Positions 1,122-35,739 of a stretch of DNA of 35,739 bases are shown here, in pieces. The notes beneath the pieces are model-generated. The model worked only from the letters and a program-made list of their open reading frames with translations, was not told where the DNA came from and ran no database searches. Made by a program: the position numbers and the translations under genes. Source of the stretch: a virus; IMG/VR virus record IMGVR_UViG_3300045806_000134, positions 1 to 35,739 of that record; one strand, given 5' to 3'. Position 1 is the first letter of the stretch. The number at the start of each line of letters is the position of its first letter.

Positions 1122-1134
1122 TATAATGTATAAT
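1122..1134 (+). promoter_or_regulatory. Two overlapping -10 boxes upstream of the antirepressor leader
   Basis: TATAAT occurs at 1122-1127 and again at 1129-1134. No convincing -35 box is present at 16-18 bases for either, partly because the region upstream is the preceding terminator. A promoter here would start the attenuator-like RNA that precedes the antirepressor gene. Confidence 0.5.
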
Positions 1135-1138
1135 TGGT

Positions 1139-1237
1139 GTCGTAGCCAAAACGAAAATTCAAACAAAGCCGTATCTATTTATCAGATGGGATAATTTTCG
1201 CCCTCTACGACCTGATATTTTTAGAGCGGCTTTTTTT
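1139..1237 (+). promoter_or_regulatory. Attenuator-like leader RNA with mutually exclusive stems
   Basis: Fold 1: GTCGTAG (1139-1145) pairs with CTACGAC (1205-1211), and CGAAAATT (1152-1159) with AATTTTCG (1193-1200). Fold 2: AAAGCCG (1165-1171) pairs with CGGCTTT (1227-1233), running into seven Ts, and TATCAG (1180-1185) with CTGATA (1212-1217). The two folds interleave, so they either compete or form a pseudoknot. Fold 2 is a terminator ending 11 bases before the antirepressor ATG. This architecture suggests attenuation of antirepressor transcription. Confidence 0.6.
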
Positions 1238-1248
1238 GTGAGTAAAAA

Positions 1249-10143: not shown

Positions 10144-12481
10144 ATCGATTATACAGATAGATGTTGATGATTCTAAATTTCTACAATTTAAGTCAGTTTT
10201 TGACGATTATAAGCAATCATTAGAATCAACACCCGAAGCGTGGAGCGATGCTAACTCAGAAATGGGCAACATGGTACAGGCTTCGCAGTTGCTTAAAAAT
10301 GACGCTGAGAAACGCCTAGCCTTGTTGCAGTCTGCCACACTTGAAGAAGAAAAAGCCGAAAAAGCACTAAGCAAGCAAGAACAAGCGCGTAAAAAATCAA
10401 CCGAAGACCGCAAGAAAAAAGACCTTGAATCAATCAAGCGCTGGAAAGAGCTTGGATCAACAATTGCAGGAGCAACTGCACAACTAGCCAAGTTTGCCGC
10501 CGTTGGCTTAGGTATCGCCACGGGCACAACTACGCTAGGCATGGGCAAACTAGCCAATGACGCGAGCGCGGCGCGTTTCCAGTCTATGGGGCTTGGAGTG
10601 TCAAGCGGTGCGATGCAGTCAGCGAATGTCAACTACGCAAAATTGCTAGGTAGTCCAACTGGTACGCTTCAATCTATCCGCGAGAGTCAAACCGATGTCA
10701 GTCAGGCGTGGAAGTTTTCGACCATCGGCGTACAGAATGCCGCGAATAAATCAACTGATCAGCTACTCCCTGAGGTCTTAACAAAAATTAGGGACACGCT
10801 AAAAGCTGCACCTGCTAGCCAGCGCGAAAACATTGCGAAGGCTTACGGCATGGACGGCTTCACGAGTGCAGAGGACAGACAGCGCATGATGTCTATGTCT
10901 GACGCCGAATTTTCCGCAGAAAATAAACGCTATCAGCAGGATTTGAAAAATTTAGCCCTGAGCGATTCCACGCTTAAAAGCTATCAAGACCTCAATACAC
11001 AATGGGAAAGATTTAAACAAAAAACAGAAAATACATTTATTAAAGGACTTGAGCCTCTAGCACCCGCTTTGACCAGATTTAGTGAGGCAATAGGCAGCGC
11101 GTTCGAGAAATTCATGGCGGCTGATAAGTTAAAGTCTATTATCAATAAATTAGCTGATGGGATTACCCGTTTCGCAGAGGGAGACCTAAATAAATTTATT
11201 ACGGGGATTGAGACAGCCGCCGCCACGCTTGGCACGTTTGCCGAGTGGATAGGCTCAATCACACCTGAGAAAGCTGCTTTGGTTGGTGGTGGTGTATTGG
11301 CGGCAGGTGCGGCAGCTACAGGGGTAGGTGCATTAGCAGCGGGGGCAGCGTCTATAGCGTTGCCATTAGCAGCGGCTGGCGCGGGCGGTGCGTATATCGG
11401 TAGCAAAGCCTACGAAAATGATACGCCCGAAAATCAGGAATGGACACAAAAGCTGGTAGGTAATGTGGCTGCTTTTTTTGGCGACAAAGATGCCCAAGAC
11501 GCACAAGCGCAATTAAAAAGTTTTGAAACCAACAACAAAATTGCAGAAGAAGCATTAAAAAACGGCACTACTAATAATGAATTATCCAAAGAAGCCAACG
11601 CTAGACTTAAAGAGCTAGGCAAACCAATGAGCAAGGATGAATACAAAAAAATAGACGATGAATCGAAAAGCGGGTTTATTGTCGGTATTGGTCAGGTGTT
11701 TAAAACGGCTTTATCTGACGTATGGGGAAAGACAAAGGAAGTGGCGGGGGATGTTGGCAATGCAATGATTGACAGTGCCGATGCAGGCGAATTGCCTAGC
11801 GTGAAAATTGGTGGGAATCAATTTGAAAAGCACAGCTCAGCGTCAAAAGCACTTGAACAGCTTGGCATGAAACAGTTTGAAGCTAGAGGGCTTGCTACAA
11901 ATATCATGGCTGAATCGAGTATGAACCCTATGATTGGAGGTGATGGCGGGAAGGCTTACGGGCTTATGCAATGGCATCCAGACAGACAAGCTAAGTACAC
12001 AAAGCTTATGGGGCATACAATGCAGAGCGTCAAGGATAAAAAGACAGCATTAGCAGAACAACTTAAATTTGCACACTGGGAAATGACACAGGATTCTTAT
12101 GAGAGTAAAAACTTTAGCAGGGCAAGTAAGGAATCAGGTGGTAACGCTTCAAAAATGGCGGGGCTTGTTTCAAAATATGTCGAACGACCAAAAGCCGTAG
12201 AAGAAGCGGCGCGTAACAGATCAGCACAAGGCGCGGGTTACGAAAAACAATACGGGTCTTCTATTTCTAAAGGCTCTCCAGTGGTTACAGGACGCGGTGA
12301 AAAGGATATAAACGGCAAGGTAAAAGATACTTACGCACTCAGAAAGCCAACAGCCGACCAACAAAAAAGCGTTATGTTTCAAGACCAAGGCGGAGGGTAT
12401 AATAGCAACTCAAACAGAGTACAAATTAATGTAAGTAACAGCACGGGCGGCAGTGCTACAGCGAGCGCGGTTAGTTTATGA
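10136..12481 (+). CDS. Tape measure protein with C-terminal lysozyme-like domain
   Basis: 781 residues. Residues about 55-110 form a charged coiled coil (EEEKAEKALSKQEQARKKS). Residues about 381-425 are a long Ala/Gly-rich hydrophobic stretch typical of tape measures. Residues about 560-700 match the phage tail lysozyme pattern: NIMAESSMNPMIGGDGGKAY with a Glu near 592 as likely catalytic acid, then GLMQWHPDRQ and a long helix. The protein sets tail length and is ejected on infection, and the lysozyme part probably opens a local hole in peptidoglycan. It is short for the family, implying a tail of roughly 110-120 nm if the usual 1.5 angstrom per residue holds. The next gene overlaps by ATGA. 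Confidence 0.85.
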   Translation: MAKSIIQIDVDDSKFLQFKSVFDDYKQSLESTPEAWSDANSEMGNMVQASQLLKNDAEKRLALLQSATLEEEKAEKALSKQEQARKKSTEDRKKKDLESIKRWKELGSTIAGATAQLAKFAAVGLGIATGTTTLGMGKLANDASAARFQSMGLGVSSGAMQSANVNYAKLLGSPTGTLQSIRESQTDVSQAWKFSTIGVQNAANKSTDQLLPEVLTKIRDTLKAAPASQRENIAKAYGMDGFTSAEDRQRMMSMSDAEFSAENKRYQQDLKNLALSDSTLKSYQDLNTQWERFKQKTENTFIKGLEPLAPALTRFSEAIGSAFEKFMAADKLKSIINKLADGITRFAEGDLNKFITGIETAAATLGTFAEWIGSITPEKAALVGGGVLAAGAAATGVGALAAGAASIALPLAAAGAGGAYIGSKAYENDTPENQEWTQKLVGNVAAFFGDKDAQDAQAQLKSFETNNKIAEEALKNGTTNNELSKEANARLKELGKPMSKDEYKKIDDESKSGFIVGIGQVFKTALSDVWGKTKEVAGDVGNAMIDSADAGELPSVKIGGNQFEKHSSASKALEQLGMKQFEARGLATNIMAESSMNPMIGGDGGKAYGLMQWHPDRQAKYTKLMGHTMQSVKDKKTALAEQLKFAHWEMTQDSYESKNFSRASKESGGNASKMAGLVSKYVERPKAVEEAARNRSAQGAGYEKQYGSSISKGSPVVTGRGEKDINGKVKDTYALRKPTADQQKSVMFQDQGGGYNSNSNRVQINVSNSTGGSATASAVSL

Positions 12482-15401: not shown

Positions 15402-15421
15402 TGTTATGTTATAACATTACA
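15402..15421. promoter_or_regulatory. Operator 3, hybrid of the two capsid operators
   Basis: TGTTATGTTATAACATTACA joins the left half of operator 2 to the right half of operator 1, with the central 12 bases (15406-15417) perfectly palindromic. It lies between a TATAAT box (15393-15398) and the baseplate J start. Confidence 0.75.
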
Positions 15422-24913: not shown

Positions 24914-25205
24914 CCATACACAACTATACACACCATACACTAACTATACACGCTTTAAGTTATTGATTTAAAAAGGGTAGTGTATAGAGTGTATAGTTTG
25001 TATAGTTTAGAGTCATGTAAGAGAATATATATAAAATTACACGCTATACACGTTCGTTTTTTTATATTTTGCACACGTTATAAAACAAATTTGAAAAAAA
25101 CTACACAAACTATACACTGACAACATAAACCCACGAACGGCGCGGGGTGTAGCGCGTTAAAAGTGCCGTTTTTAGTGTATGTACAGTTTAGCGAACTGTA
25201 CACGG
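24913..25205. other. Iteron-rich region, probable replication origin
   Basis: Four decamers at 24913-24952 share C(C/T)ATACAC with exact 10-base spacing. Three inverted copies of GTGTATAG or TTGTATAG follow at 24980, 24989 and 24998 with 9-base spacing. Two more CTATACAC copies lie at 25044 and 25110. TGTACAGTT and AACTGTACA form a 9-bp inverted repeat around 25180-25202. AT-rich runs lie between. The 343 bases from the primase stop to 25256 contain no credible gene. Location immediately downstream of a primase-helicase supports an origin. Confidence 0.6.
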
Positions 25206-34831: not shown

Positions 34832-35620
34832 ATGCTAACGCCACAGCAGGTACTAACCAACGCAATCAAAGACTTGCAGCGGCACGGCTATGACAGCCCT
34901 GAGCGCGTGGAAAAATGGGTGCGCGAATTATCGATTGCAATAGAGCGAACAGGCATTAAAAACGATGATGAGCTAAAGCAGTCAGTACGCGCATCACTTG
35001 CACCCAAAATGCACAATGCAGCAAGTAGCGCGTTGCGTGGCATGGGTATCAGTAGATTCAATAAATCGAATCTATCACCACGCATATACAACGAGTTAGA
35101 CAGGCGCATACTTGCCAGCACGTCACTGATAAAGCTAAACCGCACAACGGCGGTTAATGACACGCTACAGCGGTTTATCGGCTGGAGTACGTCAATACCC
35201 ACAGGCGGTGCGGTCATTGATGACAAGGTGGAAGTTAAGCAGGGTATTAAAAAGGCACTGTCACAGCTTGATTTTGTCGAACGGCGGGTAATTATTGATC
35301 AGAACAGCAAATTAATTGCCAATGTTAATAACATTGTTGCGGTTGATGGTGGCGCGGTTGCGGTAACGTGGAATAGCCATTGGCGGCAAAAAAATTATGA
35401 TTACCGACACAATCACAAAGAGCTAGACGGCAAAACCTTTTTAATCCGTGACAGTTGGGCAGATAAAGCGGGATTAGTGAAAGGCGATTATTACGAAGAC
35501 CTGCCCGACCAATTCGGACAGGCTATATTTTGTCAATGTTATGGCTCATATTTGTTTAGGCTGAACCGCCTACCAGACGACATGCTAACTAAGAAAGGTC
35601 AGGAGTATAAAAAACAATGA
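34832..35620 (+). CDS. MuF/SPP1 gp7-like minor head protein
   Basis: 262 residues. The C-terminal domain has the MuF signature: NSHWRQKNYDYRHNHKELDG, then KTFLIRDSWADKAG, and LPDQFGQAIFCQCYGSYLF with the conserved CxC. The N-terminal two thirds is helical. Family members join prohead assembly near the portal and may be ejected. ATG 34832 follows a 39-base gap after the preceding gene. The stop overlaps ATG 35617, which is the ATG at position 5 on the circle. Confidence 0.8.
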   Translation: MLTPQQVLTNAIKDLQRHGYDSPERVEKWVRELSIAIERTGIKNDDELKQSVRASLAPKMHNAASSALRGMGISRFNKSNLSPRIYNELDRRILASTSLIKLNRTTAVNDTLQRFIGWSTSIPTGGAVIDDKVEVKQGIKKALSQLDFVERRVIIDQNSKLIANVNNIVAVDGGAVAVTWNSHWRQKNYDYRHNHKELDGKTFLIRDSWADKAGLVKGDYYEDLPDQFGQAIFCQCYGSYLFRLNRLPDDMLTKKGQEYKKQ

Positions 35621-35739
35621 ACAACATATCTTTAAAAATTGCGCTATTGTCACTAAAGCAAAGACAGCTAATGATTCGTGCTGATGCAGCTAGCGATAAA
35701 CACAAATGGATAACCACCGAAACTGGCAGCCATATCAAA
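35613..35739. repeat. Terminal overlap identical to 1-127
   Basis: The closing copy of the circle junction, identical to the first 127 bases. The partial frame from ATG 35617 is the beginning of the gene annotated at 5-874, not a third gene. Confidence 0.9.

Follow-up and report, generated by a model that had tools for sequence, protein, structure and literature searches.

The c4 RNA represses an antirepressor. In phages P1 and P7 the C4 RNA, like sRNA-Xcc1, is a same-strand leader of an AntA-type gene in which two sets of complementary segments are interleaved within one transcript in the order A5-B5-A3-B3, the second target being the Shine-Dalgarno sequence. Both c4 and the c4-a1b1 motif are listed by Weinberg et al. 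2010 (PMC2864571). C4 RNAs are characterised by an outer stem around two hairpins, the loop of the second being complementary to the Shine-Dalgarno sequence of the gene, and by trans action as a processed RNA of ~77 nt. IsrK of Gifsy-1 is a short antirepressor leader which ends at an intrinsic terminator, read-through giving the mRNA; this mRNA is also its target in trans (PMC4825925). The CI RNA of P4 base-pairs with complementary segments of the leader from which it derives, causing premature termination (PMC4825925). The sar RNA of P22, another small RNA that holds down an antirepressor, acts on the initiation of ant translation (PMC12197685) and is not a leader attenuator of the kind proposed here.

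The window, by which we mean the whole stretch of 35,739 nucleotides analysed here, carries at 1122-1248 a leader that lies on the same strand upstream of a putative antirepressor gene and has the topology of the C4 (L209) and sRNA-Xcc1 leaders. Its second target is, however, an intrinsic terminator where that of the C4-type leaders is the Shine-Dalgarno sequence. Its outer stem A encloses segments that match a terminator arm with a U-tract, the two-hairpin core of C4 is missing, and the RNA would start at its own predicted promoter, with no evident processing by RNase P of the kind that releases C4. IsrK activates translation via a small ORF, whereas the window leader has neither a small ORF nor a sequence match to IsrK. 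The P4 CI system (seqA / CI / seqC) comes closest in proposed mechanism, although it controls replication genes and CI is a processed RNA; a sequence relation between P4 CI and the window leader is not recognisable, nor is there an Rfam match of any kind. From its sequence, the leader seems to work like an attenuator, plausibly in the manner of c4 and P4 CI, and is not a member of the Rfam families C4, sRNA-Xcc1 or IsrK. The sequence-only reading had suggested an independent solution, which was too strong: C4-type leaders share strand, gene family and the A5-B5-A3-B3 order, and IsrK and P4 CI also act on their own transcripts.

An Rfam scan of the window and of the 321-base region at a lax threshold returned chance matches only; the window did not match C4 (RF01695) at the gathering score, a family search found none at E up to 10, and sRNA-Xcc1 (RF02221) and IsrK (RF01394) were likewise without a match in the window. 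No Rfam family matched the leaders of L139, L212, L217, L138, L227, L288, L258, and L293, or the C4-like leader of L219. The sRNA-Xcc1 model is present in four other leaders (L134, L210, L129, L208), and L209, counted here as C4, also matches the IsrK model. A terminator-type version of the c4 leader was not found described in the open-access collection searched, which takes in few subscription papers.

The genome belongs to a tailed phage with recognised portal, terminase, tail lysozyme, and primase genes. Its first 127 bp are repeated directly at the other end (1-127 = 35613-35739), and the genome is therefore probably complete, circular or permuted, so that the gene at 5-874 runs on from the other end of the record. 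Inside the head/portal gene region, the presumed antirepressor gene (hereafter antA) forms a self-contained unit with its own promoter, its function being assigned from the AntA/AntB domain. As a Pfam search of the window genome recognised 0 integrases and 0 repressors, a role of antA in lysogeny is something that we infer. The features of the locus are as follows.

1098-1127, + strand: sigma-70-like promoter from a promoter scan (TTTAAA, 18 nt, TATAAT at 1122-1127, TG upstream)
1134-1149, + strand: HP1, 5' hairpin (TTGGT/GCCAA) with element a in its loop; the first fold in growing transcripts
1139-1145, + strand: a, 5' arm of the outer helix of fold A, GTCGTAG, read from the sequence and unchanged in L139 and L288
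1152-1159, + strand: b, 5' arm of the inner helix of fold A, CGAAAATT; 4 of 8 pairs changed on both sides relative to L139/L288
1165-1171, + strand: c, 5' arm of the lower helix of terminator fold B, AAAGCCG; 2 of 7 pairs changed on both sides
1180-1185, + strand: d, 5' arm of the upper helix of fold B, TATCAG; 3 of 6 pairs changed on both sides
1188-1203, + strand: small GGG/CCC hairpin within the terminator loop, with b' in its own loop (minimum-energy structure)
1193-1200, + strand: b', 3' arm of the inner helix of fold A, AATTTTCG, from the structural-register alignment with L139/L288
1205-1211, + strand: a', 3' arm of the outer helix of fold A, CTACGAC, read from the sequence; directly abuts d'
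1212-1217, + strand: d', 3' arm of the upper helix of fold B, CTGATA, from the structural-register alignment
1222-1237, + strand: 3' arm of the terminator from folding, comprising c' (CGGCTTT, 1227-1233), TAGA pairing with 1174-1177, and the U-tract
1249-1932, + strand: controlled gene, putative AntA/AntB antirepressor of 227 aa (Pfam PF08346, E 1.7e-14)

The blocks thus follow one another as a b c d b' a' d' c', with fold A formed by ab/b'a' and fold B, the intrinsic terminator, by cd/d'c'. All elements of the two interleaved folds that had been claimed at 1122-1248, each with two perfect stems, were located there, including a terminator ending 11 bases before the gene (the U-tract ends at 1237 and the ATG is at 1249). 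The predicted terminator therefore lies between promoter and first codon. A consensus terminator scan limited to loops of 3-8 nt passed over it on account of its long loop. The U-tract is equally placed in L139, L288, L212, L217, L138, L227, L168, L171, L177, L178, L258, and L002. The promoter agrees with the consensus at 10 of 12 positions, which is weak on its own since shuffles yield 0.8 such sites; TATAAT stands at a comparable distance in four relatives (L139, L288, L002, L258), and TTGACA-type promoters are found in four others (L217, L227, L135, L141). Transcription would be expected to start at about 1133-1135. There is no leader peptide, the sole ATG of the leader opening a two-codon frame (ATG GGA TAA). 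Other details recur: a predicted hairpin holds a in its loop in L139, L288, L212, L168, L002, L258, L227, L171, and L135, GGG...CCC surrounds b' in the sequences of L139, L288, L168, L141, and L171, and a' abuts d' in L139, L212, and L288 and nearly so in L217 and L138.

Minimum-energy folding of growing transcripts was used to follow the order of these structures in the window and its homologues. In the window, HP1 alone is the best structure up to 1193, HP1 with b:b' at 1200, fold A from 1211 to 1227, and fold B at 1233, the change from A to B being abrupt once c' is complete. The probability of fold A is 0.98-1.0 before this flip and at most 0.01 after it, fold B reaching 0.94-0.97 once c' has been made, and full-length transcripts forced into either fold have energies of -19.8 (A) and -27.7 kcal/mol (B). 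The order HP1, A, B is also predicted in L288, L212, L258, L217, L138, L227, L171, and L193, and partly in L139, L168, and L135; for L002 and L177, there is no transcript length at which A is the predicted dominant structure. In most relatives a hairpin displays a in its loop and the loop of the terminator carries a', a geometry that suits recognition both between molecules and within one. L135 has a long 5' hairpin whose match to the terminator loop (CTTCCC) is confined to its own loop (GGGAAG), and a loop-loop contact is here the natural reading. The sequence-only reading had left the choice between attenuation and a pseudoknot; attenuation is now favoured, and a full H-type pseudoknot with both folds complete looks sterically unlikely and was discarded as the main model, as A3 abuts B3 with no linker.

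The overall folding energy of the leader is unremarkable (z -1.56). We also took the best-scoring interleaved repeat pair within 150 bases 5' of the gene, using a finder that separates helices, and its score was reached by 0 of 60 shuffles and by 1 of 100 in an independent run, so that support from the single sequence appears modestly to moderately above chance. Among 107 AntA leaders, 21 reached a level of at most 1 in 100 shuffles, compared with 13 of 243 controls, which were starts of other ORFs from these loci (Fisher p 1.1e-4); some of these 21 are C4-type, with B3 being the Shine-Dalgarno sequence, and the interleaved pattern is absent from about three quarters of the AntA leaders sampled. 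When a U-tract after B3 and a z above 3 were also demanded, 7 AntA leaders and 1 control remained, the lone control turning out to be another AntA gene, the second in L138, which has a nearly identical leader to itself. A wide terminator scan, its thresholds set after the members were known and its sample rich in AntA loci, serves as an illustration and not as a test.

It is the comparative data that we regard as the convincing evidence, namely compensatory changes in both folds and recurrence before predicted antirepressor genes. Both repeats persist, in unrelated letters, before AntA genes and two Rha genes of divergent phages; L003/L217, for example, with an AntA protein 56% identical, shows the same arrangement in a leader of unrelated sequence. 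BLASTN of the leader against phages gave spurious short matches only, and a pattern scan with ACAAAGCCGTATCT found random loci only, which served as background DNA. By leader, the nearest relatives are L139 (AntA) and L288 (Rha, PF09669), both of which share a and a' with the window. When HP1 and the helices of a to d are counted in structural register across these three, 93 of 96 cells are paired, and nine pairs differ on both sides (b four, c two, d three); both folds are supported because the changes in b back A and those in c and d back B. MAFFT had set b' of the window one base off, and b:b' was counted in a hand register that leans towards the structure; in the unadjusted MAFFT alignment support for fold B is weaker, in the same direction. 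The covariation in both folds that the sequence-only reading had named as a check is thus found, and the outcome that it had named as a refutation, homologues in which conservation is confined to the terminator stem, is not what the comparison shows.

In L002, L258, and L293, where the promoter, HP1, and B are nearly constant and mean column identity across the leader is 87%, 6 of the 7 pairs of the a:a' helix are changed on both sides, which none of 500 shuffles equalled and slid registers match less well. This joint exchange of a and a' looks like a change of specificity, as RNA-RNA recognition predicts. Six more pairs changed on both sides come from L217, the two L138 leaders, and L227. These alignments are small (3-4 rows each), and several of the closest relatives derive from one metagenome (IMG 3300020045). 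The earlier structure that competes with the terminator is conserved by covariation, and transcription attenuation, one of the two options raised from sequence, appears to be the best-supported reading with both the terminator and the competing earlier fold conserved. As Rha-type regulators are preceded by the module as well (L288 by Pfam, L293 by similarity), it seems to travel with antirepressor-type genes.

Several loci carry more than one such leader or a different form of it. L138 has tandem AntA genes, each with a near-identical interleaved leader (36-162 and 1222-1349), and one shared RNA could act on both. L218 has an AntA gene and an adjacent Rha-like gene, each with a terminator-type leader (~1330-1500 and 1950-2115) and with core sequence in common. 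L219, whose AntA is the nearest relative when the full domain is compared (72% identical), lacks a terminator and is laid out compactly like C4: at ~1395-1500 an outer stem is combined with two hairpins, and the loop sequence GCTTACC matches a GGTAAGC that precedes the start.

We put at roughly 0.5 the probability that the antA leader is an attenuator governed by mutually exclusive RNA folds, A being the ON state, B the OFF state, and the free leader favouring B. The attenuation part of this reading draws on the conserved anatomy and the computed energies. Transcription would start just 5' of HP1, whose loop would display a. As b' and a' emerge, A (a:a' with b:b') would become the best structure, keep c and d looped, and set a' against the next segment, hindering terminator B; a polymerase passing the U-tract while A lasts would read into antA. 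If A were not formed, or were resolved in time, c and d would pair with d' and c', transcription would stop 11 nt before antA, and a leader RNA of ~105 nt would be released. Fold A would in this way antiterminate, although its 3' arm lies in the terminator loop and uses no terminator arm, so that pairing of c with c' could go ahead while part of A persists.

The last step, action in trans, we infer throughout: once terminated, the leader probably shifts other transcripts towards B. With the free RNA in form B, a and b would be accessible and could pair with a' and b' of a new transcript; this would block A in cis and increase termination, so that leader RNA made by a resident copy would shut off antA on its own genome or on an arriving one that shares its specificity. 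Trans action is likely given the co-change of a and a', the two-hairpin geometry, the tandem leaders of L138 and L218, and the precedents of IsrK and P4 CI, two cases that differ in sign. Action of the P4 CI type at antA is pointed to only by the complementarity and the a/a' co-change.

Among the alternatives, the one that survives best, unlikely as we consider it, is a switch acting in cis only, set by a protein, a host condition, or the speed of transcription, with an RNA that has no trans action. Folding in cis alone accounts for all measurements made here, and the HP1/A/B series resembles classical three-state attenuators. However, the letters of the arms are unrelated between phages, so that a common protein site is not visible, a and a' have changed together while the rest stayed constant, which suits recognition between molecules, and L138 carries its leader twice.

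We hold it to be rather improbable that a C4-like antisense RNA controls translation at this locus. A processed, A-closed RNA (~1134-1212), with c and d in its loop, would pair in trans with d' and c' near the antA ribosome site and block translation. C4 and sRNA-Xcc1 leaders do stand before the same gene family with the A5-B5-A3-B3 order and B3 at the Shine-Dalgarno sequence (L209, L134, L208, L129, L210), and the layout of L219 is of this kind. Nevertheless, in leaders like that of the window B3 forms one arm of a terminator and has a U-tract, the Shine-Dalgarno sequence lies outside B3 or is not evident in relatives L168 and L193, and the Rfam C4 model has no match in the window.

An IsrK-like activation, in which the terminated leader would bind the read-through mRNA and turn antA expression on, seems to us quite doubtful, even though the Gifsy-1 RNA raises its antirepressor in this way (PMC4825925) and antA, too, should give rise to a terminated leader as well as a read-through mRNA. 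A counterpart of orf45 is missing between the terminator and the gene, only 11 nt apart, and a leader folded as B, with a and b as its free segments, would compete with A, not with B. Very improbable is the reading that a plain terminator protects an inserted gene against transcription coming from upstream and that fold A arose by chance: the self-contained antA unit, its own promoter within a head-gene operon, and the modest single-sequence statistics would suit it, but compensatory changes keep fold A in separate subfamilies, and a terminator 3' of the gene's own promoter would silence that gene.

As a tentative proposal, the leader may represent an undescribed and widespread class of phage immunity RNA, in which every antirepressor has a leader of its own and terminated leaders recognise sister transcripts via a fast-evolving a/a' code and terminate them. 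If true, such a code would allow copies to be sensed and would set specificity (homo- versus heteroimmunity) with no protein involved. Antirepressors trigger the lytic switch, and so the fate of the phage hangs on what restrains them. A leader of the terminator type whose code can be swapped, standing before AntA and Rha genes, would unite c4, IsrK, and P4 CI as versions of one design, and would also supply a compact, protein-free, sequence-programmable attenuator.

Further observations were made elsewhere. In an unrelated viral contig (L042, ~11300-11450), strong interleaved repeats (CGGGCGACC/GGTCGCCCG and a second helix of 20 bp) precede a 76-aa ORF without assigned function. Operator-like palindromes sharing ATGTTATAACAT occur in the window at 2259-2278, 2290-2309, and ~15402-15421, in the forms TGTAATGTTATAACATTACA, TGTTATGTTATAACATAACA, and one hybrid of these, each adjoining a TATAAT-like box ahead of structural genes; the exact palindrome core has 3 copies in the window versus 0.01 in shuffles. 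These are candidate operators and hint at a repressor, none having been found by Pfam. Finally, the noncoding stretch at 24920-25120, 3' of the primase gene, holds many TATACAC-type repeats, direct and inverted, and is a candidate replication origin.
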